Source: Candidatus Paraburkholderia schumanniana
GTDB lineage: Bacteria; Pseudomonadota; Gammaproteobacteria; Burkholderiales; Burkholderiaceae
Direction of reading: 5' to 3'
Assembly (NCBI GenBank): GCA_001189335.2
Contig: LFJH01000007.1
Span: forward strand, 1 to 35,360
DNA length: 35,360 bases
The translations under genes and the position numbers were made by a program. Of this stretch, positions 2,275 to 25,003 are shown piece by piece; position 1 is the stretch's first letter; each line of letters starts with the position of its first letter. A model generated the notes under the pieces. That model saw only the letters and a program-made list of their open reading frames with translations, was not told where the DNA came from and did not search any database.

Positions 2275-3757
2275 TTAGCCGAGGAGCTTCAGAACCTGCT
2301 GCGGCATCGAGTTCGCCTGAGCCAGCACCGAGATACCGGCTTGTTGCAGCACCTGAGCCTTCGACAGGTTCGCGGTTTCCTGCGCGAAGTTCGCGTCGGT
2401 GATCTGCGACTGAGCCGACGACAGGTTGGTCGACTGAGCCTGCTGCGTCGCGGCGATCGAGCTGAAGCGGTTTTGCGCAGCGCCCAGACCTGCCTGAATG
2501 CTGTTCACCGTGTTCAGTGCGTTGTCGATCGATTCGATCGCGACGTTCGCCTTCGTCAGGTCGATGCTCGATACGGCGACCGGTTGTTGGTCGCGTTCGC
2601 CGTTGCGATTCCTGCGCGGCTCGCGAGTTCGTTGGCCGTGCCGAAGCCGGTCGGTGCCGTCGAGCCAAGCGCGCCACCAGCGGTGAAGGCGACCGTATCG
2701 CCGGCCGTGATCGTGAACAGCGCAGCAGCGCCGCTGCTCAGCGCATTACCGTTCTGGTCGGTGAACTTGAAGCTGCCGTTACCGTCGGCGAGCACGTTGA
2801 TCGACGTGATCGCGGCAGTGGCGCCGGTTGCAGCGGTGCCGTCCGCATTCAGCGCGACGCCGGTGATCGTGCCAAGGTTCTGGTTCGCCGTAGCGTACCA
2901 CCTTGGGTCATGCCGTTGTTCGTCGTGCTGATCGTGTTGAGAGCCGTTGCGGCGGTGCTTTGGGCGGACGTCTGATTCGTCGTCGCGAATGCGCCCGAGC
3001 CCGACAGCGTCAGCGGCTTCGGATTCGTCGTCGAACCGGTCGTGCTGGCGCCGAACAGCGAGGTCGTCACGCTCGACGACAAAGCCTGGTTGTTCTGGTC
3101 GGTGAACGTGAAGCTGCCGTTGCCGTCAGCCAGCACGTTGATTGCGGTGATCGCCGGGGTCGTGCCTGCCGCTGCCGTTGCGCTCGTGCTGTCGAGGCTG
3201 ATGCCGCTGATCGTCGAGATCGTCGTGCCCTTTTGCGGCACGCCGCCGCCGAGCTGAGCAGCCGACACGCCCTTGCTCAGATCGACGCTGATCGTCTGGC
3301 CGACGTTCGCGCCGACCTGGAAGCTGACCTGGCCAGCCGAGCCGTCGAGCACATTCGTGCCGTTGTACGTGGTCTGCGAAGCGATACGGTTCACTTCAGC
3401 GATACGCTGCGACACTTCCTTCTGCAGCGCGGCCTGGTCGGTGGCCGAGAGCGAGCCGCTCGAAGCCTGCACGGCCAGCTGGCGGATACGCTGGAGGTTG
3501 TCGGTGATCTGGTTCAGACCGCTCGACGCAGTTTGCGCCATCGACACGCCGTCGTTCGCATTCGACACGCCCTGGTTCAAACCATTGATCTGCGTCGTCA
3601 TGCGCGACGCGATCGCCTGGCCAGCGGCATCGTCGGTGGCGCTGTTGATGCGCTTGCCCAACGACAGGCGGGTGATGGCCGACGACAGCACGCTCTGCGT
3701 GCTGTTGAGGTTCTGCTGGGCAACCAGCGAGTTGATATTGCTATTGATACCGATCAT
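2275..3757 (-). pseudogene. fliC: Flagellin, broken by two frameshifts
   Basis: The filament protein gene starts MIGINSNINSLVAQQNLNST, with the classic D0/D1 N-terminus, and ends in the D1/D0 C-terminus (AQANSMPQQVLKLLG). Between these ends the reading frame changes twice. One base appears lost at about 2890-2896, after NNGMTQGGT, and another at about 2579-2585, after NATNN. With the frames rejoined, all the expected flagellin sequence is present at about 494 residues. The central region carries two similar copies of a block containing INVLADGNGSF. The start is set by an AGGAG site just upstream. As read, translation stops after about 300 residues and lacks the C-terminal helices essential for polymerisation. 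A candidate sigma-28 promoter lies upstream. Confidence 0.9.
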
Positions 3758-3856
3758 TTTTTTGCTCTCCTGGGAGACTTTGTCTGGCTTTGGCTAAAGC
3801 ACCGAGTGTTTGCCTGGCGGTCCTGCGCTCGGTGATAGCCGGCCGCCTACTTGTGG

Positions 3857-3881
3857 TTATCGGGCCCCTCGAAAAACTTAA
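3857..3881 (-). promoter_or_regulatory. Candidate sigma-28 promoter of fliC
   Basis: On the minus strand, TTAAGTTT (3874-3881) is followed by nine bases and CCCGATAA (3857-3864), about 100 bases upstream of the fliC start. Each box is one or two bases off the FliA consensus, and the spacer is two bases shorter than the usual 11. Position and resemblance support the call. The short spacer could mean a degraded promoter. Confidence 0.5.
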
Positions 3882-4001
3882 GGCCCGCGCAAACGATTTA
3901 TGTGATGAATGCTGCCGTAAGGCATTGAAGGCTCGCCCGGCACGGCTTCGGTTTCGCGCGTATGCTTTTCGATCCGTTCTTCTTGCGCATTCGGAGCACA
4001 C

Positions 4002-4952
4002 ATGCAGACACGCAGCATCGGCAATTCGGATCTGAAAGTCGCGCCGCTGGTCTTCGGCGGCAACGTGTTCGGCTGGACCGCCGACGAGCGCACGTCGTTC
4101 TCGATCCTCGACGCATTCGTCGATCACGGCCTTAACTTCATCGATACCGCGGACGTCTATTCCGCGTGGGTCGACGGGCATCAGGGCGGCGAATCGGAGA
4201 CGATCATCGGCAAGTGGTTCAGGAAAAGCGGCAAGCGCCATCGGGTCGTGCTCGCAACGAAAGTGGGCAAGCTCAGCACGCGCGCAGGCCTGACCGCGGC
4301 GAACATCGCGGCGGCCGTCGACGATTCGCTGCGGCGCCTCAAGACCGACTACATCGACGTCTACTTCTCCCATTACGACGACGAGCAAACGCCGCTCGAC
4401 GAGACGCTCCCTGCATATCAGAAGCTCATCAAGGCGGGGAAGGTGCGGGTGATCGGCGCGTCGAACTACACGGGCGAACGGCTCGGAGAGGCGTTGAAGG
4501 TTGCGGAGGATTCGGGCTTGCCGGCCTATCAGATCCTCCAGCCGGAATACAACCTCTACGACCGGGAGGGCTACGAAACCGGTCTCGAGCCGGTGGCCGT
4601 GCAGCACCGGATCGCGGTCGTGCCGTACTACGCTCTCGCGAGCGACTTTCTCTCCGGCGAGTACCGGTCGAAGAAAGACACGTGGAACAAGGCGCGCGGC
4701 TCGCGCGTGGAGAAATATCTCGACGATCGCGGGCTTACGATTCTCGACGCGCTCGACGAAGTGGCGAAGCGCAACGACACGACGCCCGTGAGCGTCGCGC
4801 TGGCATGGCTCATCGCGCGCCCGAGCGTGACGGCGCCGATTGCCAGCGCGACGTCCGTCGGACAACTCGAAAGCCTCGCGGCCGCGACGCGCCTCGCCCT
4901 CGCCGACGAAGACGTGAAACTCCTCGACGAAGCCAGCGCGTGGCAGAAATAG
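4002..4952 (+). CDS. Aldo/keto reductase family oxidoreductase
   Basis: The frame is intact and codes for 316 residues, a normal length for a (beta/alpha)8-barrel NADPH-dependent aldo/keto reductase. The catalytic tetrad can be read directly: Asp48 and Tyr53 in IDTADVY, Lys87 in LATK and His124 in YFSH. The C-terminal part has the family's cofactor-binding region (SVALAWLIARPSVTAPIASA). A GGAG site about 10 bases before the ATG supports the start. It probably reduces an aldehyde or ketone in the cytoplasm; the substrate cannot be told from sequence. It stands alone, divergent from fliC, and is not part of the flagellar regulon by function. Confidence 0.93.
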   Translation: MQTRSIGNSDLKVAPLVFGGNVFGWTADERTSFSILDAFVDHGLNFIDTADVYSAWVDGHQGGESETIIGKWFRKSGKRHRVVLATKVGKLSTRAGLTAANIAAAVDDSLRRLKTDYIDVYFSHYDDEQTPLDETLPAYQKLIKAGKVRVIGASNYTGERLGEALKVAEDSGLPAYQILQPEYNLYDREGYETGLEPVAVQHRIAVVPYYALASDFLSGEYRSKKDTWNKARGSRVEKYLDDRGLTILDALDEVAKRNDTTPVSVALAWLIARPSVTAPIASATSVGQLESLAAATRLALADEDVKLLDEASAWQK

Positions 4953-4988
4953 GTCTGTTGCATCAATGAGTTGGATGGTCCGAAAGTG

Positions 4989-5017
4989 TTGGCAGGGGCG
5001 TGGTGTTCTGGTAACAT
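4989..5017 (+). promoter_or_regulatory. Sigma-70 promoter for rpsU
   Basis: TTGGCA (4989-4994), a 17-base spacer and TAACAT (5012-5017) form a good vegetative promoter, about 290 bases upstream of rpsU. The 5018-5306 leader is long and contains no supported gene, although GC-rich short inverted repeats are present near its end. Together with the 3' end of the previous gene, this accounts for the gap 4953-5306. Confidence 0.6.
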
Positions 5018-5306
5018 TGCGCCCAAATTGAGAAATGTGCCCGATTTCCTGCCTTCGCCGCTGAGAATGACAAAGTCGTCAATAGCCAGCAGCAAACGGC
5101 TCCGAAACGCGCGTTCACGTCGTTCTTTCGAAGGCGCATGCCGCTTCGGCGGCTGAATCCCAACCCTCTCTTTTCCGGCCTCCGTGGCCGCTTTGCTCGT
5201 GTCCGCCGCGCTGCGCATTGTTGTGTCCGGCGGATGATCGGAGTGCCGGGGCGCGGCGGTTTCATCGTCGCGCGCTTAGAAATACGTTTAGCAAACTAGG
5301 ATTTAC

Positions 5307-5507
5307 ATGACCACTATCGTCCTCAAAGAAAACAAGCCGTTCGATGTCGCGATTCGGCGTTTCCGCCGCACCATCGAGCGCAATGGCCTGATCGCCGAAC
5401 TGCGCGAGCGCCAGTCGTACGAAAAGCCGACCACCGAGCGCAAGCGCAAGAAGGCCGCTGCTGTCGCGCGCCTGCGCAGCCAGATGCTGCCGAAGAAGAT
5501 GCACTGA
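5307..5507 (+). CDS. rpsU: Small ribosomal subunit protein bS21
   Basis: This is a highly basic protein of 66 residues starting [20 protein letters not shown], with the family-typical [20 protein letters not shown] segment and the C-terminal SQMLPKKMH. bS21 binds the 30S platform near the anti-Shine-Dalgarno sequence and helps initiation. The protein is about four residues shorter than the roughly 70 I remember for this group; the missing part would lie between KAAAV and LRSQMLPKK. An AGG ribosome site precedes the ATG. It is monocistronic, with its own upstream promoter and a strong terminator after it. Intact. Confidence 0.95.
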
Positions 5508-5551
5508 ACATTCTTTCTGGCGCGAGAACCCGCTTCGCGCGCCAGATGGCA

Positions 5552-5594
5552 AAACGGCGGTGCGACCCGTGAGGGCGCACCGCCGTTTCGTTTT
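5552..5594 (+). terminator. Rho-independent terminator after rpsU
   Basis: A perfect 13-bp stem (5552-5564 with 5576-5588) with an 11-base loop is followed by a T-rich tail, TTTCGTTTT. A second, smaller GC-rich hairpin lies just before it (about 5519-5543). This is a strong terminator for rpsU and could also act on the converging unknown gene. Confidence 0.85.
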
Positions 5595-5618
5595 GTCGCT
5601 CGGTCTGGATCGTTGCGT

Positions 5619-5996
5619 TCAGACGAACGCGTGGCGTTTGCCGAGCGCCGCGAGCAGATGCGGCCATTCTTCGACGTCGGCGTCGTCGTGAACCTGCTCC
5701 AGTTCGAGCAGCAGGTCGATGATATTGGGATCGTAGGCATTCACGTTCGACGCGTAGAGCGCCCGGAGCAATTTGCCGTCCTGCGCATGCCGATAATACG
5801 AAATGCCGACACCTTCGAGCGCGGGATCATACACATCGTCCCGCACGAGCGAGCCGATCGCGCACTTGCGGCCTTCGGGACTGCGCAGCCGGCACGAACC
5901 ATTGTCGTCTTCCGAGACTGCGCGCTGCGTCAGCAGATGCGAACTGACGCGCTCGTAAATCTCCTTTGGGCTCAACATCATAATAGGGCTCAACAT
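5619..5996 (-). CDS. Hypothetical protein, paralogue of the upstream gene
   Basis: The product of about 125 residues is of unknown function. It contains CAIGSLVRDDVYDPALEG in the middle and a helical C-terminus NAYDPNIIDLLLELEQVHDD...EEWPHLL. The same pattern (a short CxxG-like loop, then LEG/MEG, then N-x-Y-x-PN-x3-LL-x2-L-x2-VHD) recurs in the gene just upstream, so the two are paralogues in a small operon separated by 17 bases. I chose the ATG at 5994-5996, preceded by a weak AGG. The original start may be the ATG at 5976-5978, because an 18-bp tandem duplication has copied the start region. No membrane segment or signal peptide is seen. I do not recognise the family. Confidence 0.65.
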   Translation of the reverse strand: MLSPIMMLSPKEIYERVSSHLLTQRAVSEDDNGSCRLRSPEGRKCAIGSLVRDDVYDPALEGVGISYYRHAQDGKLLRALYASNVNAYDPNIIDLLLELEQVHDDADVEEWPHLLAALGKRHAFV

Positions 5997-6003
5997 CACA
6001 GCA
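5968..6003. repeat. 18-bp imperfect tandem duplication over a start codon
   Basis: The 13-base sequence gggctcaacatca occurs at 5968-5980 and again at 5986-5998, an offset of exactly 18 bases. It duplicates the start-codon region of the hypothetical gene in frame, adding six codons. Confidence 0.85.
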
Positions 6004-6013
6004 CCTGCAATAC

Positions 6014-6443
6014 TCAAGCAGCCGTTTTCAGAAGCTCGGCGGCGGCGGAAAGGCCAAACTGACGCGCGATCGACGTGAGGCGCTCGCGCCACTCCCACTT
6101 GCCGAACACGTCATGGACGTTCTGCAGGCAGGAGAGCAATTCGACGGTGTTGGGCGAATACGTTGATGCGCGCACGAAGCAGCGCACGCTTGAGCGCCGC
6201 GACGCCGACATCCATATACTCCGGAATCTGCTCGGGCGGCTTCGCGATATAGCGGATGGGCACGCCTTCCATCGCGGTGACGTAGTCGCGCGGCCTGATG
6301 AACCGGCCGACGGGGCAACCGCCGCAATATCCGCGGTAGGCACCGCCTCCGTGCGGCAGCAATGCCGCTTGCCCTTGCACGAAAAGATGCTGTACTGCGC
6401 TATTGAAAATCTCCTGATGGGTCAGGAAGTTCAGGCTTTTCAT
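6014..6443 (-). pseudogene. Hypothetical protein, frameshifted paralogue
   Basis: The gene begins MKSLNFLTHQEIFNSAVQHL after a GGGGAG site and reads through a Gly/Cys loop (GGAYRGYCGGCPVGRF) and AMEGVPIRYI. At about 6159-6163 one base appears missing: the frame in use continues to a different tail, whereas the neighbouring frame gives YSPNTVELLSCLQNVHD and an EWRERL segment that match the downstream paralogue exactly in pattern. Rejoined, it would be about 143 residues. It lies 17 bases upstream of its paralogue on the same strand, so loss may be buffered by the second copy. Function unknown. Confidence 0.65.
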
Positions 6444-6905
6444 GATCTTCTCCCCTGCGCCCCTGCGCAGGGGCCATGCGTTTAGATTGTTCGAGGACCT
6501 GCACCTGCTGCACCGGAGCGGCGGCGTGGTTGCGAATGTGGCGCAACCTCAATGAACGCTTCGCCGCCCAGATACTGCTTCGAGCACGGCGGTTTTGCCG
6601 GCCTGGGCTTTCGGTCCACTTCGCCCTGTGTGCTCGCGTCGGATTTCTACACTCGATGAACCATCCGTACACCGCCAGTTATAACGGTTCGGTCCGGTAA
6701 AAAGGTGCGCCAGCGCACGCGGCGACGCCATTTTTACACGGACCGCACGTTCGTGCAGTGCGCAAAATACATTGAAAACCCTTGCATAGCGGAGATTTAC
6801 GCGTGCTTCGCTGCAAAAAAATGGCTTGTATTGTGGTATTTTCCCTGAGCCGCGCGTTTCGCGTTGAGAAATGTTGTCAAAACGCAAAAATCTTCCGTTA
6901 TGGAG
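6444..6905. other. Intergenic, AT-rich in part; no gene found
   Basis: Between the unknown operon and tag lie about 460 bases. The first 30 hold a GC-rich palindrome (cccctgcg...) next to the ribosome site of the 6014-6443 gene. The part from 6690 to 6900 is clearly more AT-rich than its surroundings, with several A and T runs. A leftward promoter for the unknown operon is expected here, but no convincing -35/-10 pair stands out. Open frames in this stretch have no family signal, and I do not call them. Confidence 0.5.
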
Positions 6906-10100: not shown

Positions 10101-10803
10101 TTATTTCTGGCGCGTAATGCACGGATAAAGCAGACCGGCGATGATCGCACCGATGATCGGCGCAATCCAGAACAGCCACAACTGATCGAGCGCCCAGCCG
10201 CCGACGAAGAACGCCTGGCTCGTCGAGCGCGCCGGATTCACCGACGTGTTCGTGACCGGAATCGAGATCAGATGGATGAGGGTCAGGCACAGGCCGATGG
10301 CGAGCGGCGCGAAGCCCTTCGGGGCGCGGTCGTCGGTGGCGCCGAGAATCACGAACAGGAAGAAAAAGGTCATTGCGACTTCGCAGATGAGCGCGGAGAC
10401 CATCGAGAACCCGCTCGGCGAGTGTTCGCCGAAGCCGTTTGCGGCGAAGCCGCTCGAAGCGAAATCGAAGTGCGGATTGCCCGTGGCGATCAGATCAGGT
10501 AGATGATCCATGCGCCGAGCGTCGCGCCGACAACCTGCGCGGCGATGTACGGCAAGAGGTCACGCACCGGAAAGCGGCCCGCCGTCGCGGACCGATGCTC
10601 ACGGCCGGGTTCAGATGACAGCCGGAAATGTGGCCGATGGCGTAGGCCATCGTCAGGACGATCAGACCGAACGCCAGCGAGACGCCGGCGAAACCGATGC
10701 CCAGCGCAGGAAAAGCCGCGGCGAGCACGGCGCTTCCGCAGCCGCCCAGCACAAGCCAGAAAGTACCGAAAATTTCAGCGCCGAGACGCTTCGACAAATG
10801 CAT
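10101..10803 (-). pseudogene. aqpZ: Aquaporin Z, broken by two lesions
   Basis: Both halves of the water-channel fold are recognisable: [20 protein letters not shown] and the first NPA box in HLNPAVS, then the second NPA box in NTSVNPARS with the selectivity-filter Arg, and a last helix ending at ITRQK. They are in different frames. The first shift is at about 10588-10594, just after NPAVSIG. The second is a perfect 5-bp tandem duplication (ATCAG twice, 10489-10498) that changes YLIATGN to a stop. Rejoined, the protein has about 233 residues, near the usual 231. The duplication is a slippage-type mutation and is hard to explain as a base-calling error. Own terminator downstream. Confidence 0.88.
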
Positions 10804-11051: not shown

Positions 11052-12116
11052 TCAGCCCACCGCCACCTGGCGGAGCACCGGGCGCTTCGCGGCCTGGAGC
11101 AGCGAGGCATAGCTCTCGACGTAGTTCCGCGCCATCGTCTTCGAGCTGAAGCGGCGCTCGAACTGCGCACGGATTTCCGTGCGAGAGAGTTCGTCCAGAC
11201 GCTGCAGTGCGCCTACGGCACCCGGCACGTCCTCGCAGATGAAGCCCGTCACGCCGTGATCGATGACTTCCGGCACCGAGCCGCGGTTGAACGCGATCAC
11301 CGGCGTGCCGCAGGCCATTGCCTCGATCATCACCAGGCCGAACGGCTCGTTCCAGTCGATCGGGAAGAGCAGTGCCTTGGCGCCCGAGAGGAATTCCGGC
11401 TTCTGCGCCTCGTTGATCTCGCCGATGAACTCGACATGCGTCTGCGACAGCAGCGGCTCGATCGTCGACTTGAAGTATTCCTGGTCGACCTTGTCCACCT
11501 TGGCGGCGATCTTCAGCGGCAGGCCGCTCTGTGCCGCGATCTCGATGGCCAGATCGGCGCGCTTTTCCGGGCAGATGCGACCCAGGAACGCGAGATATTC
11601 CGGCTTCTTGTGCGGCTGCGGCGTAAGCAGCCGGTCCGGCAGACCGTGATAGACCGTGTTCAGCCAGTTCGCCTGCGGCAGCGGTCCGCGCTGGTTGTCC
11701 GAGATCGAAATCACGTTCGCCTTCATGAACGTGTTGAAGATCGGCTGTAGCTCGGGCAGGTCGAGACGGCCGTGGAGCGTCGTCACGAACGGCGTGTCCA
11801 TCTGCGTGAAGAGCGGAAACGGTATGTAGTCGAGGTGAAAGTGCAGCACGTCGAACTCGTGGGCGCGCTGTCGGACGGTTTCGAGCAGCAGCATGTGCGG
11901 CGCGACCGCGTCGCGGACAGTCGGATCGAGCCGCAATGCGCGCGGCCATACCGCTTCGAGCTTCGCCTTGGTTTGCGAATCGCCGCTGGCGAACAAGGTG
12001 ACATCGTGCCCGAGGTCGACGAGCGCGTCGGTCAGATACGACACCACCCGCTCAGTGCCGCCGTAGAACTTCGGAGGAACTGCTTCGTGCAACGGTGCAA
12101 TTTGTGCGATTCGCAT
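11052..12116 (-). CDS. GT4-family glycosyltransferase
   Basis: An intact protein of 354 residues. The N-terminus MRIAQIAPLHEAVPPKFYGG with TERVVSYLTDALVDLGHDV is the acceptor domain of group 1 (GT4, GT-B fold) transferases. The C-terminal donor domain has GRICPEKRADLAIE and the EPFGLVMIEAMACGTPVIAF region, containing the E-x7-E motif. The start follows an AGGAGAG site. It transfers a sugar from a nucleotide donor to an unknown acceptor in the cytoplasm. Its position divergent from flhDC is compatible with a role in cell-surface glycan or flagellin glycosylation, but that is guesswork from context. It is intact next to a decayed motility cluster, which argues for a job outside motility. Confidence 0.9.
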   Translation of the reverse strand: MRIAQIAPLHEAVPPKFYGGTERVVSYLTDALVDLGHDVTLFASGDSQTKAKLEAVWPRALRLDPTVRDAVAPHMLLLETVRQRAHEFDVLHFHLDYIPFPLFTQMDTPFVTTLHGRLDLPELQPIFNTFMKANVISISDNQRGPLPQANWLNTVYHGLPDRLLTPQPHKKPEYLAFLGRICPEKRADLAIEIAAQSGLPLKIAAKVDKVDQEYFKSTIEPLLSQTHVEFIGEINEAQKPEFLSGAKALLFPIDWNEPFGLVMIEAMACGTPVIAFNRGSVPEVIDHGVTGFICEDVPGAVGALQRLDELSRTEIRAQFERRFSSKTMARNYVESYASLLQAAKRPVLRQVAVG

Positions 12117-12820: not shown

Positions 12821-13144
12821 ATGACGACCATTAATACGAGTACGCTCGCGGAAATCCGCGAGGTCAATCTGTCGTACTTGCTCCTCGCTCAGCGGCTTCT
12901 GCAGGAAGACCGCGTTTCGGCGATGTACCGCCTGGACCTCTCCGAGTAGGTCGCGCAGGTGCTGTCCTCGCTCACGCTCGCGCAGGTGGTGAAGGTGGCG
13001 ACGTCGAGCCATCTGCTGTGCCGCTTCCGTTTCGACGACCATACGATCCTTTCCTCGCTCGCCGACAAGGACAAGAGCGCGGCGCTCACGCAGGCGCATG
13101 CGGCGATCCTGCTGGCGGACAGTCCCGTCGCGCAGATCGGCTGA
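12821..13144 (+). pseudogene. flhD: Flagellar master regulator subunit FlhD, nonsense mutation
   Basis: The reading frame of 107 codons matches FlhD along its whole length: [20 protein letters not shown] at the start, LTLAQVVKVATSSHLLCRFR in the middle and AHAAILLADSPVAQIG at the end. Codon 43 is TAG (12947-12949), where the family normally has a Gln, consistent with a single C-to-T change of CAG. The frame is otherwise undisturbed. FlhD forms the FlhD4C2 complex that switches on the flagellar class II genes. The 42-residue product lacks most of the dimer core. Internal restart at the GTG of 12959 is conceivable but would give only the C-terminal part. The gene lies 22 bases before flhC. Confidence 0.92.
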
Positions 13145-13166: not shown

Positions 13167-13738
13167 ATGGCGACCAAGAGCGTGGTGGCGGAAGTCCGCG
13201 AGATCACTCTGGCGATCGAGCTGATCGAGCTGGGCGCGCGCCTGAAGCTGCTCGAAGCCGAGACGAGCCTGTCGCGCGACCGGCTCATCAAGCTCTACAA
13301 GGAACTGAAGGGCGCCTCGCCGCCCAAGGGCATGCTGCCGTTCTCGACCGACTGGTTCGTGACCTGGCAGCCGAACATCCATTCGTCGCTGTTTCACGGC
13401 ATCTACCGGTTCATCCGCGCACACGGCAGCGCCGACGACGCCCAAGCAAGATTCAGGCCATCGTCAGGAGCTACCGGCTGTATCTGGAGCATGCCGCGCT
13501 GTATGGCGAGGAGCCCGTGCTCTCTCTCACCCGCGCCTGGACGCTCGTACGCTATTTCGAGTCCGGCATGCTTCAGACCAATATCTGCAGGCGCTGCGGC
13601 GGACGCTTCGTCGCACATGCCTACGACCTGCGCGCGGGCTACGTCTGCGGCCTGTGCCAGCCGCCCTCGCGCGCCGGCAAGACCCGCAAGTCGGTCGCAC
13701 GGCCCGCCGCGGAGGGCGCCGCGCGTATCGCGGCCTGA
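13167..13738 (+). pseudogene. flhC: Flagellar master regulator subunit FlhC, frameshifted
   Basis: The N-terminal frame runs from MATKSVVAEVREITLAIELI to FIRAHGSADDA. One base is missing at about 13432-13445, and the neighbouring frame gives KIQAIVRSYRLYLEHAALYG and the C-terminal zinc-binding region with ICRRCGG and YVCGLC, where the four cysteines are intact. Rejoined length is about 190 residues, normal for FlhC. FlhC is the DNA-contacting partner of FlhD, and the zinc cluster is needed for binding. As read, the product loses it. With flhD also broken, class II flagellar genes probably cannot be activated. Confidence 0.9.
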
Positions 13739-13902: not shown

Positions 13903-14762
13903 GTGCTGATTTTCGTTGGATCGCTCGTGACATTGCTGTCCGTCTTCGGCGATTATGCGCTCGAAGGGGACACCTTGGCGCGCTCCTGCAACCCATCGAG
14001 GTTCTGATGATCGCGGGCGCGGACGTCGGAGCGTTCATCCTCGACAACAAAGTCAAGACCATCAAGGCAACCATCCAGGTCATCCCGACGCTCTTCAAGG
14101 GCGCCAAGTACGACAAGAGCATGTACATGGAGCTGATGGGCCTGCTCTATGTCCTGCTCGCGAAGGCGCGCAAGGAAGGCACGCTCGCGCTCGAAGCGGA
14201 TATCGAGGATCCAGAGAAGAGCCCGGTCTTCAGCCAGTATCCGAAGATCCTGGCGGACCATCACATCGTCGAATTCCTGACGGACTATCTGCGCCTCATG
14301 GTCAGCGGCAACATGAACGCGTTCGAGATCGAAAGCCTGATGGAGAGGAGATCGAGACGCATCACGTCGAGGGCGAAGCGCCCGCGCACGCGCTGACCAA
14401 GGTCGGCGACGCGATGCCCGCCTTCGGCATCGTCGCGGCCGTGATGGGCGTCGTGCACACGATGGCCTCCGCCGATCAGCCCACCCGCGGTCCTGGGCGA
14501 GATGATCGCGCAGGCGCTCGTCGGCACCTTCCTCGGCATTCTGCTTTCGTACGGCTTCATCGGGCCGCTCGCGAATGTCGCGGAGCAGCGCGTTGGCGAG
14601 CAGACCAAGATGTTCCAGTGCATCAAGGTGACGATCCTCGCGAGCCTCAACGGATACGCGCCCGCGATCGCGGTGGAGTTCGGCCGCAAGGTGCTGTTCT
14701 CGACGGAGCGCCCGTCGTTCTCCGAGCTGGAAGAGCACGTGCGCCGGGTCAAGTCGAAGTGA
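13903..14762 (+). pseudogene. motA: Flagellar stator protein MotA, three frameshifts
   Basis: MotA is the proton-channel subunit of the flagellar stator. A GTG start after AGAGAGGAC gives VLIFVGSLVTLLSVFGDYAL. One base is lost in the G-run at 13966-13969, after which the correct frame gives IEVLMIAGADVGAFILDNK and ILADHHIVEFLTDYLRLMVS. Another base is lost at about 14341-14350, after ESLM. One base is gained at about 14478-14486, in ADQP-PAVLGEM. The last part (LLSYGFIGPLANVAEQR and the C-terminal tail ending RRVKSK) contains the fourth membrane helix. All expected segments are present once frames are joined, so the gene is full length but dead. Confidence 0.92.
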
Positions 14763-14802: not shown

Positions 14803-16230
14803 ATGAGCAACGGCAGCGATCGTCCCATTTTCATCAAACGCGTCGTCGCGGGCCGCAAGGGGCATCACGGCGGCGCGTGGAAGCTCGCCTACGCCGACTT
14901 CATGACCGCGATGATGGCGTTCTTCCTGCTGATGTGGCTGCTTTCGTCGACTTCGCCGGTGCAGCGGCGCGGCATCGCGGAGTATTTCCAGATACCGCTC
15001 AAGGCCGCGATGATCGGCGACAAGAGCGTCGGCGTGGGCAACAGCATCATCACCGGCGGCGGGCGTGACATCTCCAGCAACGAGGCGGGCGCCGCGCGCA
15101 GGACTCAGGGCGTCTCGCAACTCGCGGAGCGTGCCTCGTCGCAGAACGACGACGAGCTGCTCAAGGCCGCGCAGGGCGAGCTCGAACGCCGCGAGCAGGT
15201 GTGCCTGCACGATCTTCAGGCAAAGCTCATGGCGGCGATCGAGGCCAACCCGACGCTGCGCCAGTTCAGGCAGCAGATCCGCATCGAGTCGACGCAGCAG
15301 GGCTTGCGCATCGAGATCGTCGATACACAGAAGCGGCCGATGTTCGCGCTCTCCAGCGACAGCGTGCAGCCCTACATGCGCGACATCCTGCGCGAGATCG
15401 GCCGGAGCCTGAACGACGTGCCCAATCGCATCGTCGTGCAGGGACACACCGACGCCGTGCAGTACGCAGGCGGCAAGAAGGGCTACAGCAACTGGGAGCT
15501 CTCGGCGGACCGCGCGAACGCATCGCGGCGCGAACTGGTGGCGGGCGGCATGGACGAGGCGAAGGTGATGCGCGTGCTCGGTCTCGCGTCCACGCAGAAC
15601 CTGAACAGGAACGACCCGCTCGATCCGGAGAACCGGGGCATCAGCGTCATCGTGCTGAACCGGAAGACCGAATTGTCGATGCAGCGCGGCGACGGCGGCC
15701 CGAGCGCCACGCTCGACAACGGCACGAATGAAGGCGGCGGCGCATCGAGCGGATCACTGAACGAATCGCTGAGCGGCGCACTGAGCGGATCATCCGAAAA
15801 AACAGCCTCAAGACTCGGCACGTTTCGACCGTCATCACGGCAAGAGACAAACATGATCAAGCACATTCTGGCAATCGACGATTCGGCCGCGATGTGGCAA
15901 ATCATCTCGGCAACGCTGGCGACGGCGGGCTACGAAGTGACCGTCGCCTCCGATGGCGACGAAGGCCTGGAATGGGCGCTCGCCGAGCGCTTCGATCTCG
16001 TTCTGACCAGTCAGCACATGCCGGGCAGGAGCGGGCTCGATCTGATCGTGGCACTGCGCGCGAACCACGCCTACCGGGCGACGCCGATCCTGGTCCTCAC
16101 GACAGAAGACGGCGAGCCGTTCAAGGAGGCGGCGCGCTCGGCGGGCGCGACGGGCTGGATCGAGAAGCCGCTCGATCCGGACCTGCTGACCGAGCTGGTC
16201 GCCGCGCTCTCGGAAGATACGCAGCACTGA
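14803..16230 (+). CDS. motB: MotB fused to a CheY-like receiver (stop codon lost)
   Basis: Residues 1 to about 330 are the stator anchor MotB: KGHHGGAWKLAYADFMTAMM with the proton-accepting Asp33 at the start of one membrane helix (AFFLLMWLL), then a linker and the OmpA-like peptidoglycan-binding domain (VVQGHTDAVQY, NWELSADRANASRREL). The frame has no stop afterwards. It runs through a Ser/Gly-rich stretch and directly into the next gene's MIKHILAIDDS, making one frame of 475 codons. In relatives these are two genes. No stop is left in this frame between about 15700 and 15853, so the original MotB stop has been lost by substitution or indel. Whether the fusion is made or functional is unknown. 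MotA, its partner, is broken. Confidence 0.85.
   Translation: MSNGSDRPIFIKRVVAGRKGHHGGAWKLAYADFMTAMMAFFLLMWLLSSTSPVQRRGIAEYFQIPLKAAMIGDKSVGVGNSIITGGGRDISSNEAGAARRTQGVSQLAERASSQNDDELLKAAQGELERREQVCLHDLQAKLMAAIEANPTLRQFRQQIRIESTQQGLRIEIVDTQKRPMFALSSDSVQPYMRDILREIGRSLNDVPNRIVVQGHTDAVQYAGGKKGYSNWELSADRANASRRELVAGGMDEAKVMRVLGLASTQNLNRNDPLDPENRGISVIVLNRKTELSMQRGDGGPSATLDNGTNEGGGASSGSLNESLSGALSGSSEKTASRLGTFRPSSRQETNMIKHILAIDDSAAMWQIISATLATAGYEVTVASDGDEGLEWALAERFDLVLTSQHMPGRSGLDLIVALRANHAYRATPILVLTTEDGEPFKEAARSAGATGWIEKPLDPDLLTELVAALSEDTQH
15853..16230 (+). CDS. CheY-like response regulator without its phosphoacceptor Asp
   Basis: This is the receiver domain that should stand alone between motB and cheA: 125 residues starting MIKHILAIDDSAAMWQII, with the acidic pair Asp9-Asp10 and the Lys of WIEKPLDP. 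Position 53, normally the phosphorylated Asp in a LTDQNMPG context, reads LTSQHMPG here: codon AGT at 16009-16011 gives Ser. The fold is kept but phosphorylation by CheA should be impossible. It can be translated from its own ATG at 15853, although no good ribosome site precedes it, or as the C-terminal part of the MotB fusion. It is probably on its way to being a pseudogene. Confidence 0.75.
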   Translation: MIKHILAIDDSAAMWQIISATLATAGYEVTVASDGDEGLEWALAERFDLVLTSQHMPGRSGLDLIVALRANHAYRATPILVLTTEDGEPFKEAARSAGATGWIEKPLDPDLLTELVAALSEDTQH

Positions 16231-16324: not shown

Positions 16325-18601
16325 ATGACACTCGACATTACCCAGTTCTATCAGACCTTCTTCGACGAAGCGGATGAACTGCTCGCACAGATGGAGCAAC
16401 TGCTGCTCGTTCTGGACATCGCGAATCCCGATCCGGAAGACCTCGCCGCGATTTTCCGCGCCGCGCATTCGATCAAGGGCGGCGCGGCTACCTTCGGCTT
16501 CACCGCGCTTACCGAAACGACGCACATCCTCGAATCGCTGCTGGACCACGCGCGCAACAACGAGCTCGTCCTGCGCCGCGACATGATCGACACGTTCCTC
16601 GCGACCAAGGACGTGCTCTCCGACCAGCTCGCCGCCTATCGCGCGAGCGCCGAGCCGGATGCCGGCGCGGCCGCCGCGATCTGCGCGAAGCTCGAGCGCC
16701 TGAAGAACGAAAGCGCCGGGCCCGCCGAAGCCGGTGCGGGCCACATCGAGCCGCCCACGCTGCCGGGCACGGAGCATGGCGCAGCGAACGCGATGGTCCC
16801 TCCCGCCTACGAAGGCCCGAACGCGCCGCCCGCGCACGTGCTCGCGCAGGCGATGGATGTCATCGAGGACGACGGCGACTGGGACGGCGCGTTCGAGCTC
16901 GCCGATGGAATCACGCATGCGGGAACCGCTGCCGATGCAACGCCGGGGCACACCGGCGCGCCGGTGGCGGAAGCAGGAACCCACCTGAAAATTACGCTAC
17001 GGGGGGTGGGCGAGAAGGACCTGGCGACTCTGATCGAGGAGCTGGGAAATCTGTGAAGCATCGTCGGGGAAAAGAAGGCGGACGCCGAGTACGTGGTTTG
17101 GCTCGACTCGGACGTCCCCGCCGACGATATCGTCGCTGTGTGCTGCTTCGTGATCGATGAAAGGCAGATCACGATCGGCCGTGGCGATGCTACGGCGCGA
17201 TCGGCCGAGGCTCAGCCGGCGGCGCCAGCGGTGCAACCCACGCCACAACAAGAGCCGAAGCAATCGCAGGCTGAAGTCACGCCTGCATCCGCGGCCAGCA
17301 GTGAGGCAGTGAAAGAAGAAGCGGCGTCGGCGGCGGTTCAATCCGCCGCCCAGCCGTCCAAAACCTCGGCCGGCGACGCCGAGAAGAAGGCGCGCCCGTA
17401 GGCGGCCGCATCGGCGGAAGGCAGCTCGATTCGCGTCGGCGTGGAGAAGGTCGATCAGCTCATCAATCTGGTGGGCGAGCTCGTCATCACGCAGGCGATG
17501 CTCGCGGAAACCACGAGCACCTTCGATCCCGCCTTGCACGATCGCCTGTTCAACGGCATGGCGCAGCTCGAGCGCAACGCGCGCGATCTGCAAGAAGCCG
17601 TCATGTCCATCCGCATGATGCCGATGGACTACGTATTCAGCCGCTTCCCGCGCCTCGTGCGCGATATCGCCGGCAAGCTCGGCAAGGAAGTGGAGCTCGT
17701 CACGTTCGGTCAGGCGACCGAGCTGGACAAGAGCCTGATCGAGCGCATTATCGATCCGCTCACGCACCTCGTGCGCAACTCGCTCGATCACGGCATCGAG
17801 GCCGTGGAATCGCGCCGCGCGGCGGGCAAGCCCGCGACCGGCCAGCTCGTGCTGTCGGCGGCGCATCACGGCGGCAATATCGTCATCGAGGTGAGCGACG
17901 ATGGCGCGGGCCTGCGCCGCGACAAGATTCTCGCCAAGGCGCAGAAGCAGGGTCTGCAGGTTTCCGAGTCGATGACCGATGAAGAAGTCTGGCAGCTCAT
18001 CTTCATGCCGGGCTTCTCGACCGCCGAGCAGGTGACGGACATCTCCGGCCGCGGCGTCGGCATGGATGTGGTGAAGCGCAATATCCAGTCGATGGGCGGC
18101 CACGTCGAAATCAGCTCGCGCCAGGGCGCGGGCACGACGACCAGGATCGTGCTGCCGCTCACGCTCGCGATCCTCGACGGCATGTCGGTGAAGGTCGGCA
18201 ACGAGATCTTCATTCTGCCGCTCAACTTCGTGATGGAATCGCTGCAGCCGGCCGCCGAAGACATCTACACGGTCGCGAACGGCGAGCGCGTGGTGCGCGT
18301 GCGCGGCGAATATCTGCCGCTCGTCGTGTTGCACGGCGTGTTCGACGTCGAAGGCGCGTGCACCGACCCGACCCAGGGCATCGTCACGATCATGCAGACG
18401 GAAGGCCGTCGCTTCGCGATGCTGATCGACGAGCTCGTCGGCCAGCAGCAGGTGGTCGTGAAGAATCTCGAAACGAATTACCGCAAGGTGCACGGCATTT
18501 CCGCTGCGACCATCCTGGGCGACGGCAGTGTCGCGCTGATCGTCGACGTCGCCGCGCTCAACCGCGAATCGCGCGCCCAGCACGGCGCGCACTCTCACTG
18601 A
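16325..18601 (+). pseudogene. cheA: Chemotaxis histidine kinase CheA, two in-frame stop codons
   Basis: One continuous frame of 758 codons covers all CheA domains. P1 has phosphorylated His48 in FRAAHSIKGGAATFGF. P2 follows near residues 220-290, then a Pro/Ala/Gln-rich linker. P3-P4 have LVRNSLDHGIE (N box), DDGAGL and GRGVGMDVVKRNI (G boxes). The CheW-like P5 ends the protein. Two nonsense codons interrupt it: TGA at 17054-17056 (codon 244, in P2) and TAG at 17399-17401 (codon 359, in the linker). Because the frame is unchanged, these are base substitutions. The truncated product keeps only P1 and half of P2, so no kinase activity. Restart after the second stop could give P3-P5 alone. Confidence 0.94.
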
Positions 18602-18637: not shown

Positions 18638-19165
18638 GTGGCAGACATTCAATCGATTCAAAACGCAACGCTCGCCAGCACCGTGCGCCGCGATGCGCAG
18701 CACGCCGAAGCGGCCGGTCAGGAATTTCTCGTGTTCACGCTCGGCGCCGAGGAATACGGCATCGACATCCTCAAGGTGCAGGAGATTCGCGGTTACGACA
18801 ACGTTACAAGCATCGCGAACGCGCCGGCGTTCATCAAGGGCGTGATCAACCTGCGCGGCATCATCGTGCCGATCGTCGACATGCGCATCAAGTTTAGCCT
18901 GGGCCGCGTCGACTATGACAACCAGACGGTCGTGATCATCCTGAACGTCGCGCACCGCGTGGTCGGCATGGTGGTCGACGGCGTGTCGGACGTGCTCACG
19001 CTCACGCCGGAACAGGTGATGCCCGCGCCGGAATTCGGCGGCACGCTCGCGACGGAATATCTGACGGGTCTCGGCACCGTCGATGGGCGCATGCTGATCC
19101 TCATGGACATCGAAAAGCTCATGACGAGCCGCGAGATGGAGTTGATCGACTCCGTCGCTGCATAA
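18638..19165 (+). CDS. cheW: Chemotaxis coupling protein CheW
   Basis: Intact, 175 residues from a GTG start after AAGGGAG. CheW is the cytoplasmic adaptor that links chemoreceptors to CheA. Family landmarks are present: [39 protein letters not shown] and the second beta-barrel with [17 protein letters not shown]. No lesion is visible. It sits 36 bases after cheA and before the receptor gene. With CheA and the receptor broken, an intact CheW has no obvious partner in this window, so it may simply not yet have been hit by mutation. Confidence 0.96.
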
Positions 19166-19216
19166 GCCCGCACGTCAGCACGCAAACACAGACGCAAAGA
19201 AAGCAGGAACGAAGCC

Positions 19217-20976
19217 ATGCTGAAGAAGTTGTCGATCCGCACGACGCTCACGCTCGTCGGACTCAACTCCGCGGGCGCCGCGCTCACCTCGCTCGCGCAG
19301 GAAGATATGGTCGCGATGCGCGCGCTCTCCGAGACCTCGTCCTATTTGCTGCGCTCGCGCGTGACGCTCGACCGCGTGCGTTCGCTCGCCGAAGCGGGCA
19401 ACGACGCCGAAGCGAAGAAAGCGATCGATCGCGGCCAGTACCTAATGGACAAGAGCAACGAGAACTGGAAGCTCTATCTCGACACGCCGAAGCCGATGCT
19501 GCCGAAAGCCACGCTCGACGCCCTCGTGGCCCACCACGACACGCTGGTCAAGACCGGCGTGGAGCCGGAGTTCGCCGCGATCCGGGCGAACGACATGGCT
19601 GCGTACCACGCGATCGCCGACACCAAAATCAGCCCGATGTTCGTCGCGTTCGATCAGGCCGTGTCGGCTGCCGTCGCATCGCATCAGGTGCACGCGGAAA
19701 GCTCGCGGGCCAGCACGGCTTCGAATATCGCGACGCTCAACCTGACGATCGGCGCGGTGCTCGTATTTGCCGTGCTGATGCTCGTCGCCACGCGCATGGC
19801 GCTCTCGAGCCTGATCGTAAAGCCGATCAACGACGCCGTCGATCACTTCGAGCGCATCTCGCGCGGCGATCTCACGCACGCGGCGCACTCCGACAGCGAC
19901 AACGAGATCGGCCGCCTGTTCGCGGGCATCGAGCGCATGCGCGGCGATTTGACGGCGATGGTCGGCACGGTGCATCGCGGCGCGGAATCGATCGATGTCG
20001 GCGCGCATGAAATCGCGAGCGGCAACACGGATCTGTCGCAGTGCACGGAAGAGCAGGCGGCGTCGCTGCAGGAAACCGCATCGAGCATGGAAGAGCTCAC
20101 GAGCACGGTGAAGCAGAACGCCGACAACGCGCGCCAGGCGAGTCAACTTGCGGTGAACGCATCGGAATCGCGTCGCGCGGCGGTGAAGTGGTCGAGCAGG
20201 TCGTCCAGACGATGCACGCGATCGCATCGAGCTCGAGCAAGGTCGTGGACATCATCGGCGTGATCGAAGGCATTGCGTTCCAGACCAACATTCTCGCGCT
20301 CAACGCGGCCGTTGAAGCGGCGTGCGCCGGCGAGGAAGGGCGCGGCTTCGCGGTGGTCGCGGGCGAAGTGCGCTCGCTCGCACAGCGCAGCGCGGTGGCG
20401 GCGAAGGAAATCAAGGCGCTGATCGGCGACTCGGCGACGAAGGTCGACAGCGGCACGGAACTCGTCGCGCGCGCCGGCCAGACGATGGGCGAGATCGTGC
20501 AGGCCGTGCGCCGCGTGACCGACATCATGAGCGAGATCAGCGCGGCGTCGGAGGAGCAGTCCGACGGCATCGAGCAGGTCAACCGCGCCGTCACGCAGAT
20601 GGACAGCGTCACGCAGCAGAACGCCGCGCTCGTCGAGCAGGCCGCGGCCGCCGCGGCATCGCTCGAAGAGCAGACGCTCCAGTTGAAGGACATGGTCGGG
20701 CAATGGCGTCTGGAAGGTGCCGCACCGGTGCGCGCGAGCGCATCGACGGCTGCTGCGCGTCTCGCGCCGGCGGCGCCCGCCGCCCGCATCGAGCCGTCGT
20801 CGCCTGTGGCCGCGACGAAAGTCGAAAAGCACGCCAAGCACGACGAGACCGCAAAAGTTGCGCCGGAAGCGGCCGTTATCAAGAAAGCGGGCGGCGAAGC
20901 GGCCAAGCCCGCGAGCGTCGCGAAGCCCGCAACGGCGCCGCGCGCCAAGGCCACGACCGCCGCCGACGGCGACTAG
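19217..20976 (+). pseudogene. Methyl-accepting chemotaxis protein, frameshifted and lacking its first membrane helix
   Basis: A Tsr/Tar-type receptor. The periplasmic four-helix part (AMRALSETSSYLLRSRVTLD and following), the second membrane helix (TIGAVLVFAVLMLVATRMAL), HAMP and the cytoplasmic signalling hairpin ([18 protein letters not shown]) are present. The N-terminus passes from MLKKLSIRTTLTLVG straight to LNSAGAALTSLAQED, leaving no room for the normal first helix; an in-frame deletion is inferred. A single-base loss at about 20166-20172 then shifts the frame after VNASE. The tip also reads AACAGE where AARAGE is usual. The C-terminus has an Ala/Lys-rich tail. Confidence 0.88.
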
Positions 20977-21145
20977 GAAACCTTCTGATCGGGTCGGGGA
21001 CGAAAACGGCCATGCAGGCATCGCGCATGACGATCGATAGCCGGCGTTTCATCGAAACGCACGACAGACGCGAGTCGGCATGGCCGGGCGCGACGAACAC
21101 GCCACATCGAGCGCCGAGGATGGCGCCAGGAAAGCACGAAACATC

Positions 21146-22060
21146 ATGATGGCAACGCGCAACGCGCGCGTCGACTCGCCCGCCAGCGTGCGGAGCGCGG
21201 AAGTCGAGCGCGATTTCGAATTCACGGGGGCGGATTTCGCCCGCATTCGCGAGCTGATTCATCGGCGCGCGGGCATCTCGCTGTCGGACCACAAGCGCGA
21301 CATGGCGTACAGCCGCCTCGCGCGCCGTCTGCGCGCTTGCGGCATCGACACGTTCAAACAGTATCTCGACCGTCTCGAAACGAACGAGGACAACGCCGAA
21401 TGGGAGGCGTTCGTCAACGCGCTGACCACGAACCTCACGGCATTCTTCCGCGAGTCGCATCACTTTCCGATTCTCGCGGAGTTCGCGCGCCACCGGCAGC
21501 AGCCGTTGTCGGTGTGGTGTTCAGCGGCATCGACGGGCGAGGAGCCGTATTCCATCGCGATGACGCTGGTCGAAGCGCTGGGCGAGCACGCCGCGCGCCA
21601 CTGCACGGTGTTCGCGAGCGACATCGACAGCCAGGTGCTCGCGAAAGCCGAAGCGGGCGTGTATTCGCTCGAACAGGTGAAGGCGCTGCCGGTCGAGCGT
21701 CTGAAGCGCTTTTTCCTGAAGGGCACGGGCTCGCACGCGGGCCTCGTGAAAGTGCGCCCCGAGTTGCGCGCGATGGTGAATTTCGGCCGCATCAACCTGA
21801 CGGACGCGCGCGCTATGACGTGAAAGGTCCGTTCGACGCGATCTTCTGCCGCAACGTGATGATCTACTTCGACAAGCCCACGCAGGGCCGGGTGCTGACG
21901 CGCTTCGAGCCGTTGATGAAGCCGGGTGCGCTGCTGTTCGCGGGACACTCGGAAAACTTCACGTATGTGTCGCAGGCGTTCAGGCTGCGCGGGCAGACCG
22001 TGTACGAGCTGATGCGCGATGCGAAAGCGGCGCGCGCGCTAGCGGGGGGAGGCGGCATGA
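21146..22060 (+). pseudogene. cheR: Chemotaxis methyltransferase CheR, frameshifted
   Basis: CheR methylates receptor glutamates using S-adenosylmethionine. The start at 21146 follows an AGGAAAG site. Residues from FEFTGADFARIRELIHRRAG through NALTTNLTAFFRESHHFPIL and the SAM-binding WCSAASTGEEPYSIAM match the family. At 21804-21813 a GC repeat seems to have gained one GC dinucleotide, so the frame ends at TDARAMT, whereas the neighbouring frame gives TDARYDVKGPFDAIFCRNVM and GALLFAGHSENF. This last frame runs without a stop into the cheD ATG; an ATGA overlap (22057-22060) is the likely original end, which requires a further shift in the G-run near 22044. Confidence 0.9.
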
Positions 22061-22819
22061 GCGGACTGCCGATCGCGTCGAATTCTGTATTACGACAATC
22101 ACTTCAAGAAGCCGGGCGTCAAGCTCCTGCCGAACGAGTTCTACATGACGAGCGAGGACATGGTGCTCGTCACGGTGCTCGGCTCGTGCGTGGCGGCGTG
22201 CATCAACGATCGCACGGCGGACATCGGCGGAATGAATCACTTCATGCTGCCTGACGACGGCTCGGACGCGTCGCACGCCACATCCGACTCGATGCGCTAC
22301 GGCGCCTACGCCATGGAAGTGCTTATCAACGAGCTCATCAAGCGGGGCGGACGGCGCGAGCGCTTCGAGGCGAAGGTGTTCGGCGGCGGCGCGGTGCTCG
22401 CTGGCATGACGACCATCAACATCGGCGATCGCAATTCCGAGTTCGTGCGGCGCTATCTGGCGCTGAAAAAGATTCGCATCGTCGCCGAAGACCTGCAGGG
22501 CATGCATCCGCTCAAGGTTGCGTTCATGCCGCGTTCCGGTCAGGTGATGGTCAAGAAGCTCAGGACGCAGCACGATCCGGTCGTCGAGCGCGAGCAGGCG
22601 CTCGTGCAGCGCACGCCGGAAGAGCGCGCGGAGCGGCTCGCGAAAGCGCGTGCGTGCGTCGAGCTGTTCAGCCAGTCGAACGCGGCGGGCGCGAAGCCGC
22701 GCGCGGAACTATTCACGGCGCCGGCGAAGCCTGTCGCGAGTCCTGTCACGAAACCGCGCGTGGAACTGTTCGGCGACATCGCGCACGCTGCGCGGGCCAG
22801 AGAGGCGGAGGAAGCATGA
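22057..22819 (+). pseudogene. cheD: Chemoreceptor glutamine deamidase CheD, frameshifted near the start
   Basis: CheD deamidates receptor glutamines. The ATG at 22057 gives MSGLPIASN. One extra T at about 22083-22084 then breaks the frame. The correct continuation [20 protein letters not shown] lies in the neighbouring frame and continues intact to 22819. Catalytic Cys and His are readable in [13 protein letters not shown] and [10 protein letters not shown]. Rejoined length is about 253 residues. Restart at the ATG of 22145 would keep the catalytic core, so weak activity is possible. The C-terminal tail holds three copies of a short ELF-type motif. The stop overlaps an ATG (ATGA) at 22816. 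Confidence 0.85.
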
Positions 22820-22837
22820 CACTCACCCACGCCGAAC

Positions 22838-23909
<1,072 letters not shown>

Positions 23910-23957
23910 ACTTTCTGGATTACGCGGCAAAGCCGCAGAGAACACACGGGAGTAGTG

Positions 23958-24353
23958 ATGGACAAGAACATGAAGATCCTCGTCGTCGACGATTTTCCGA
24001 CGATGCGCCGTATCGTGCGTAACCTGCTCAAGGAGCTGGGCTACGGCAACGTCGATGAAGCCGAAGACGGCGCGGCGGGCCTCGCGCGTCTGCGCGGCGG
24101 CGGCTTCGACTTCGTGATCACCGACTGGAACATGCCGAACCTCGACGGCCTTTCGATGCTGCAGCAGATCCGCGCAGATGCGACGCTCTCGCATCTGCCG
24201 GTGCTGATGGTGACGGCGGAAGCGAAGAAGGAGAACATCATCGCGGCGGCGCAGGCGGGCGCGAATGGTTATGTGGTGAAGCCTTTCACGGCCGCCACGC
24301 TCGACGAGAAGCTCACGAAGATTCTCGAGAAGATGGCCAAAACCGGGAGCTGA
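23958..24353 (+). CDS. cheY: Chemotaxis response regulator CheY
   Basis: Intact, 131 residues. The N-terminal [20 protein letters not shown] contains the acidic pair, [13 protein letters not shown] holds the phosphorylated Asp, [12 protein letters not shown] the signalling Thr, and [12 protein letters not shown] the Lys. In relatives phospho-CheY binds the flagellar switch FliM and reverses rotation. The ATG at 23958 follows a GGGAG site; a GTG one codon earlier is less likely. It precedes cheZ by two bases. No lesion is seen, although every enzyme that would phosphorylate or use it in this operon is damaged. Confidence 0.96.
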
Positions 24354-24355
24354 TC

Positions 24356-25003
24356 TTGAACGATCTGACCACTGAATTCGCAGCCGCGGTCGCCGAGAGC
24401 AAGGGCGATCCGTCGAGTGACCGCATCCTCGCGCGCATCGGCCAGTTGACGCGCACGCTGCGCGACTCGATGCGCGAGCTCGGCCTCGACAAGCAGGTGG
24501 AAGCCGCCGCGCAGGCCGTGCCCGACGCGCGCGACCGCCTGAAGTATGTCGCGACGATGACCGAGCAGGCCGCCGAGCGCGCGCTCAACTCGACGCGCGC
24601 TCGGCCAAATGGTACGATGCGCCGCTCGCACAGGGCGAGGCGGGCGCGCTGTTCGCGCAAACGCACACGTTCCTGCAGAGCGTGCCCGAGCGGACTCAGG
24701 CCACCAACGCGCAATTGCTGGAAATCATGCTCGCGCAGGACTTCCAGGATCTGACCGGCCAGGTGATCAAGAAGATTACGGACGTCGTGTATCTGATCGA
24801 GCAGCAATTGCTGGGCGTTCTGCTCGAAAACATTGCGCCCGAGCGGCGCGAGCAGTTCGCGGCATCAGCGGCCGCGTTGATGTCGTCGACGGCCGGCAGT
24901 CCGGAAGGCCTCCAACGGACCGCAGATCAATCCCGAAGGACGCAGCGACGTCGTGCAGGATCAGTCGCAGGTGGACGATCTGCTCGCCAGTCTCGGCTTC
25001 TGA
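24356..25003 (+). pseudogene. cheZ: CheY phosphatase CheZ, internal deletion and frameshifts
   Basis: CheZ dephosphorylates CheY. Starting from a TTG after GGGAGC, the frame reads [17 protein letters not shown] to [13 protein letters not shown], then changes at about 24594-24605. Roughly 20 codons expected here seem to be missing, and the following frame gives [11 protein letters not shown] and [20 protein letters not shown], which contains the family's catalytic Gln-Asp region (QDFQDLTGQ). A second shift at about 24911-24914 moves the C-terminal CheY-binding tail (QSQVDDLLASLGF) to a third frame. The final stop is at 25001-25003. It is last in the operon and is followed by a terminator. Confidence 0.88.

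Follow-up and report, generated by a model that had tools for sequence, protein, structure and literature searches.

Loss of motility has already been published for leaf symbionts, and in Orrella swimming was reported to allow the infection of new hosts (PMC9600174). Leaf-nodule Burkholderia are likewise known to have lost motility. As for Caballeronia, endophytes of Tricalysia and Empogona are treated in the part of PMC10405798 that was available, and the available part of PMC8599487 reports pseudogenes of cyclitol biosynthesis in several leaf symbionts, so that cyclitol genes are no strict requirement for this group; the corresponding portion of PMC7186400 held nothing bearing on motility loss in leaf symbionts. 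Among the literature matches listed, no title or abstract was recognized as comparing shared with private motility lesions in leaf symbionts; the 2012 and 2016 genome papers on kirkii and crenata fell outside the search. In the mosquito symbiont Asaia, isolate ADar lost its flagellar genes, which the accessible part of PMC6317953 regards as an early step of host restriction, with the sister isolates keeping these genes. The locus described here is the flhDC-mot-che operon, with the flagellin gene fliC, on contig LFJH01000007.1 of Candidatus Paraburkholderia (Ca. P.) schumanniana (GenBank GCA_001189335.2); the whole contig of 35,360 nucleotides was analyzed and is called the window. Its flagellar genes are lost like those of Asaia ADar, with one difference: ADar lost the flagellar region as a block (same part of PMC6317953), whereas the genes of the window are near full length and bear point lesions. 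With considerable confidence, they are read as a recent, lineage-specific loss of motility in an eroding Caballeronia, a likely leaf symbiont near Ca. P. kirkii, for which relaxed selection would be the cause.

Compared with intact relatives, 11 of the 16 motility and chemotaxis genes of the window are damaged, namely fliC, flhD, flhC, motA, motB, cheA, the gene of a methyl-accepting chemotaxis protein (MCP), cheR, cheD, cheB, and cheZ, or 10 of 16 if motB is set aside; ten contain internal frameshifts or stops on which all six references agree, and five genes (fliT-like, fliD, cheY1, cheW, and cheY2) are open. The motility features of the window are the following:

256..552, minus strand: fliT-like gene, open; its 99-aa frame aligned end to end with no lesion (Pfam FliT, E 3e-4, a weak match under the curated cut-off).
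575..2092, minus strand: fliD, open, 505 aa, no lesion (Pfam FliD_N, FliD_C).
2275..3757, minus strand: fliC pseudogene, two frameshifts (Flagellin_N and FliC_D2 on the first open reading frame, ORF; the reference is a 502-aa homologue with 90% identity).
12821..13144, plus strand: flhD pseudogene, interrupted by a stop (codon 43 of 107; Pfam FlhD on the homologue).
13167..13738, plus strand: flhC pseudogene, one frameshift near codon 91-96 of 188 (Pfam FlhC 1-94 in one frame, 87-172 in another).
13903..14762, plus strand: motA pseudogene, three frameshifts (Pfam MotA on the homologue).
14803..16230, plus strand: motB, stop lost, in frame with cheY1 (a single 475-aa ORF with MotB_plug, OmpA, and Response_reg).
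16325..18601, plus strand: cheA pseudogene, two in-frame stops (Pfam Hpt, H-kinase_dim, HATPase_c, and CheW on the homologue).
18638..19165, plus strand: cheW, open, GTG start (Pfam CheW).
19217..20985, plus strand: MCP pseudogene (Pfam MCPsignal and TarH on the homologue).
21146..22056, plus strand: cheR pseudogene, one frameshift (Pfam CheR on the homologue).
22072..22819, plus strand: cheD pseudogene, frameshift at codon 5 (Pfam CheD on the homologue).
22841..23909, plus strand: cheB pseudogene, one frameshift in the variable receiver-methylesterase linker (Pfam Response_reg and CheB_methylest on the homologue).
23958..24353, plus strand: cheY2 (second cheY), open (Pfam Response_reg).
24356..25003, plus strand: cheZ pseudogene, two frameshifts, one of them accompanied by the loss of 55 bp (Pfam CheZ on the homologue).

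Lesions were called by a frameshift-aware protein-to-DNA alignment of 34 C. catudaia proteins against the window, repeated with the proteins of five more relatives, which gives six references altogether; gene families were checked with Pfam and NCBIfam on the frames of the window or, mostly, on the intact homologues. Six relatives with large genomes, presumably free-living in view of that size, served as controls, G008 (Caballeronia sp. INDeC2), G033, G005, G006, G016, and G010, and none of their 196 gene rows, a few of them cut at the end of the stretch, had a frameshift or an internal stop; nine further named relatives, covered near argS only, had a single lesion, in u440 of C. telluris. The major lesions of the window number 16 (fliC 2, flhD 1, flhC 1, motA 3, motB 1, cheA 2, MCP 1, cheR 1, cheD 1, cheB 1, and cheZ 2), leaving out the near-terminal stop of the MCP gene and the in-frame deletions. 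The MCP gene has a frameshift near codon 335, a 17-codon deletion near its start, and a stop about four codons before its end. In fliC, which is far shorter than the long flagellin of INDeC2, the place and type of the lesions vary with other fliC references because the middle domain is hypervariable; this gene also has an internal repeat of about 63 bases with 89% identity (2751-2813 and 3092-3154). Regarding motB, its stop codon is TGA in all six relatives listed, and the joint motB-cheY1 frame, apparently a chance fusion, could be translated.

The neighboring genes differ in their state, and comprise the following features:

25501..35184: intact block of SDR, dsbA, SPOR, argS, DUF1840, metH2, metH1, and DUF3567, with lesions in none of the eight.
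About 6016..6443, minus strand: u143, a conserved gene of 141 codons without known motility link, one frameshift (protein-to-DNA alignment).
About 10104..10803, minus strand: pseudogene of an aqpZ-like aquaporin with two frameshifts (Pfam MIP on the intact homologue).
11052..12116, minus strand: glycosyltransferase, intact here and also in kirkii, Ca. P. calva, and G014 (Pfam Glycos_transf_1).
25112..25423: junction between cheZ and SDR, where about 1.7 kb with two genes (DUF2844, DUF3443) is missing (alignment gap versus relatives).

The right block contrasts with the motility genes (0/8 versus 11/16 damaged, Fisher p = 0.002), and the probability that all 16 major lesions fall on the motility side by length alone is 7e-4; in dsbA the start codon is GTG instead of ATG, and the gene is otherwise without lesion. 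Between fliC and flhD lie eight non-motility genes, two of which (u143 and the aquaporin) are frameshifted, and the contrast is therefore clear-cut on the right side and less marked toward the middle of the interval. The sequence-only reading had counted at least 11 disabled genes out of 15: the 11 genes that it named are all damaged, the total is instead 16, and the disablement of motB is doubtful, as it has only lost its stop. Its other statements on the locus were borne out, since the housekeeping block, from SDR to DUF3567, is clean over 8.3 kb of coding sequence and lesions are not equally dense in the metH-argS region, while every broken gene is nearly full length, with 90-100% of the C. 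catudaia protein aligned. As for the remaining neighbors, the intact homologue of u143 had no match in Pfam or NCBIfam; u143 has frameshifts at differing sites in four of four genomes (the window, kirkii, calva, and G014) and is open in the six large-genome relatives. The DUF2844 and DUF3443 genes, named from Pfam, were not found in the window by alignment with the proteins of the relatives.

The window is an entire contig of a draft assembly of 2.35 Mb in 282 contigs, with a completeness of 60%, from which a genome of about 3.9 Mb is obtained by proportion; kirkii has 3.9 Mb, and seven large-genome relatives have 7.0-9.7 Mb. For argS, the best matches come from Caballeronia species and from leaf-nodule symbionts named as Candidatus Burkholderia/Paraburkholderia, and by these matches the source genome is a Caballeronia. 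In the argS tree (30 rows) the window pairs with kirkii with a support of 98/98, although one gene is thin evidence for a sister relation. The same tree groups G014 with calva and Ca. B. (Candidatus Burkholderia) brachyanthoides, and puts the record labeled Tri_sem (G067) near Ca. B. humilis and calva; from its label and PMC10405798, Tri_sem is taken as an endophyte of Tricalysia, even if in the available part of that paper the T. semidecidua endophyte lies close to C. fortuita and C. novacaledonica, unlike Tri_sem in the argS tree. Both ends of the contig carry a repeat of about 130 bases (88-222 and 35231-35360) that recurs in several other contigs, at their ends or close by; the assembly was probably broken by insertion sequences, of which these repeats would be the ends.

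Ca. P. kirkii UZHbot2, the leaf-nodule symbiont of Psychotria, resembles the window in having damaged flhD, flhC, motA, cheA, MCP, and cheB genes beside intact dsbA, SPOR, and argS, and no FlhA or FliF match; it differs in that cheY1 is broken too, no cheW was found, and 115 codons are deleted from flhC, and in its open cheR, cheD, and cheZ, all three of which are broken in the window. Twenty lesions of the window, 17 of them in motility genes (including the near-terminal MCP stop and motB), were read in local nucleotide alignments to kirkii, which covered 14 of the 17, the two fliC sites and flhC being uncovered. At 12 sites kirkii either agreed with the intact relative G005 in its length change or lacked the stop; the other two were not callable, the cheB linker being too variable and flhD being spanned by a deletion of kirkii itself, whose flhD has also lost its start codon and has a late frameshift. 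No lesion common to the window and kirkii was thus shown among the 14 motility sites covered (12 callable), and both aquaporin sites and the u143 site have the intact state in kirkii.

Elsewhere in the genus, seven other symbiont or symbiont-like genomes have damage in this operon, mostly at other sites. In the 13-gene cluster, where lesions in the last ten codons, the stop loss of motB, and large in-frame deletions were not counted, the broken genes over those assessed are 9/13 in the window, 5/12 in kirkii, 5/13 in calva, 3/13 in G014, and 9/12 in the Tricalysia endophyte, with partial loci in pumila (7/7), brachyanthoides (5/5), and humilis (4/5); in the same eight genomes, none of the 24 rows of dsbA, SPOR, and argS is broken. 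Calva, brachyanthoides, pumila, humilis, and Tri_sem are like the window in having the operon decaying beside these three intact genes, and unlike it in that their SDR gene is broken in all five and in that their lesions are different, with few near coincidences. Over all genes of the reference set, the 172 lesions of the eight genomes, a total that includes alignment noise (e.g., brachyanthoides cheR, 34% identical), contain four pairs of near-coincident sites: cheZ in the window and brachyanthoides (3 codons apart), cheZ in humilis and G067, u440 in calva and humilis, and SDR in calva and humilis; no such pair joins calva and brachyanthoides. Regarding the master regulator, flhD was seen in five symbiont-like genomes and is altered in each, by a 38-codon in-frame deletion in the Tricalysia endophyte, and flhC is altered in four of five; in G014 the flhC damage may be slight, consisting only of a frameshift at codon 7 with a 197-aa frame still open. 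Because no shared mot or che lesion was found at comparable sites in the two closest symbiont pairs by argS (window and kirkii, calva and brachyanthoides), there is about an even chance that the Caballeronia leaf-symbiont lineages lost motility separately and late, in which case their last common ancestors would probably still have had a swimming system under selection.

As for the age of the decay, the ratio of nonsynonymous to synonymous changes (dN/dS) was computed per branch from Nei-Gojobori counts as three-way differences. The ten broken genes of flhDC-mot-che had a dN/dS of 0.167 on the window branch versus 0.133 between relatives, the right block 0.102 versus 0.083, and the open cheY1, cheW, and cheY2 0.124 versus 0.062, the latter with few changes. 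Since the rise is about equal in the broken set and in the right block, constraint was normal along most of the window branch, which makes the damage recent. In kirkii, whose metH genes lie outside the stretch, dN/dS was 0.318 in the broken set and 0.178 in the right block, and because of the higher value of the broken genes, decay looks further advanced there than in the window.

Models of FlhA and FliF had no match in the window genome (60% complete) or in kirkii; by the same models both are open in calva, which in this is unlike the window, and in G014, C. catudaia, and INDeC2. The window genome was also searched with 40 kb of the INDeC2 flagellar clusters, in two halves: the first gave 17 matches (best E 7e-18), of which the six listed all fell on one repeat-like stretch, and the second gave two, one shorter than 40 bases and the other a contig with a repeat end followed by a match from about 0.6 kb downstream of flhA. 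The structural cluster was accordingly not found in this 60% complete genome by either approach, which suggests that the flagellar structural genes were deleted; if they are gone, the che operon would be the remnant of an already dead system. A second flhDC pair lies on another contig (517-4085), with flhD2 open and flhC2 frameshifted at codon 178 of 220, its FlhC domain being complete despite the frameshift; the neighboring gene, which we take to be polB-like, is broken. The same pair has flhD2 broken in kirkii and lesions in both genes in humilis, G056, and G067, and is open in calva and G014. That this pair had been spared for a new role of FlhDC was considered and dropped, given the frameshift in flhC2, the broken neighbor, and the lesions in other symbionts. 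A third FlhC-like gene, open, is on a further contig (3440-4009), with no FlhD2 match alongside.

Two other explanations of the lesions appear improbable, to different degrees. Errors of sequencing or assembly might be expected in a draft of 282 contigs and 60% completeness, and 12 of the 16 major lesions are indeed frameshifts inside genes; nonetheless, all 12 lie on the motility side, for which the chance by length is 0.004, and the coding sequence of the right block is clean. Few homopolymer runs were seen by eye at the lesion sites in the local alignments, and read errors do not typically produce lesions such as the three in-frame stops and the deletions of 55 bp and of 17 codons. As the lesions appear with all six references and none occurs in the housekeeping genes next door, random error is unlikely, and the idea that it created most of the frameshifts, now highly improbable, was rejected on the clean right block and the types of lesion. 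An adaptive loss of flagella, e.g., to evade the perception of flagellin by the plant, would agree with the broken fliC of the window and with the alteration of flhD, half of the master regulator, in every symbiont-like genome where it was seen; however, G014 has open fliC, FlhA, and FliF, non-motility genes decay alongside, and the lesions are spread across most genes of the operon with no concentration in fliC or flhDC, so that selection for the loss, as opposed to neutral decay, is considered unlikely.

General erosion of the genome, with the motility block decaying at the rate of any non-essential gene, is a much more serious contender, even if its probability is put somewhat below one half. 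It was weighed with three regions, each of roughly 20 kb, that lie on other contigs of this genome and were compared likewise with relatives; they were picked for their long contigs and may differ from the genome average. Of 38 ORFs, 31 were kept (six were dropped for lesions or poor coverage in the control relative, and one was truncated), and 12 of the 31 were broken by the scripted count, two of them doubtful on visual inspection (one frame is extended at its N-terminus, the other overlaps a further gene), which leaves 10/29 without them. The difference from the motility genes is not significant with the full count, and the aquaporin, u143, flhC2, and the polB-like gene are hit too; without the doubtful rows, the motility excess is suggestive (p = 0.03), and the operon is hit in all eight symbiont-like genomes assessed, window included. 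The right block has fewer lesions than the background (p = 0.04). Decay is thus genome-wide, the excess in motility over the background being only suggestive, and the proposal of a motility-specific decay is weakened by these regions. Further points weigh against a recent loss of motility through relaxed selection: the excess has p = 0.07 with all rows and p = 0.14 without motB; the comparison with the non-motility genes between fliC and flhD gives p = 0.08; fliD and the fliT-like gene are still open; the sister relation with kirkii is based on one gene; the missing flagellar clusters may be unsampled at this completeness; and the dN/dS sign of relaxed selection is almost absent in the broken genes, which is expected if the loss is very recent and is no proof of it.

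With these points taken into account, recent and lineage-specific loss is still the preferred account, and the earlier claims fared unevenly against it. The decay is recent, as had been proposed, with dN/dS barely raised; as to a sister symbiont sharing the same lesions, none of the window lesions was shown in kirkii at the sites covered. That the motility genes decay together holds insofar as their lesions are real, and fails insofar as decay extends to the background genes, u143, and the aquaporin; relaxed selection on motility gains from the damage to the operon in the seven other genomes, and loses from the weak motility excess. The organism is most likely a plant leaf symbiont: it is placed inside Caballeronia near known leaf symbionts (argS tree, single gene), its pseudogenes are numerous (12/31 background genes, two of them doubtful), and its motility genes are broken with the structural genes not found, the last two traits being as in leaf symbionts with eroded genomes. 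The window genome would be in an early phase of erosion in which motility is no longer selected for, and small indels and stops would accumulate in the flhDC-mot-che operon and in fliC; among the other genes sampled, roughly one quarter to two fifths would decay likewise, with essential genes staying clean. The loss would be both recent and lineage-specific, kirkii being without the damage of the window at comparable sites.

In conclusion, the finding is real and belongs to a familiar type, that of a probable leaf symbiont whose genome is at an early stage of erosion; of greater interest is the apparently separate breakage of this operon in related symbionts. What is added is a lineage caught early, with its genes near full length, beside a related lineage damaged at different sites of the same operon. 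Shared and private lesions could then serve as dates, telling when and how often bacteria became locked to their hosts: if swimming is what enables the infection of new hosts, the lesions would date the lock-in to vertical transmission after the split of the symbiont species, and, if this is true, decaying motility operons would be usable as clocks for the switch to vertical transmission.

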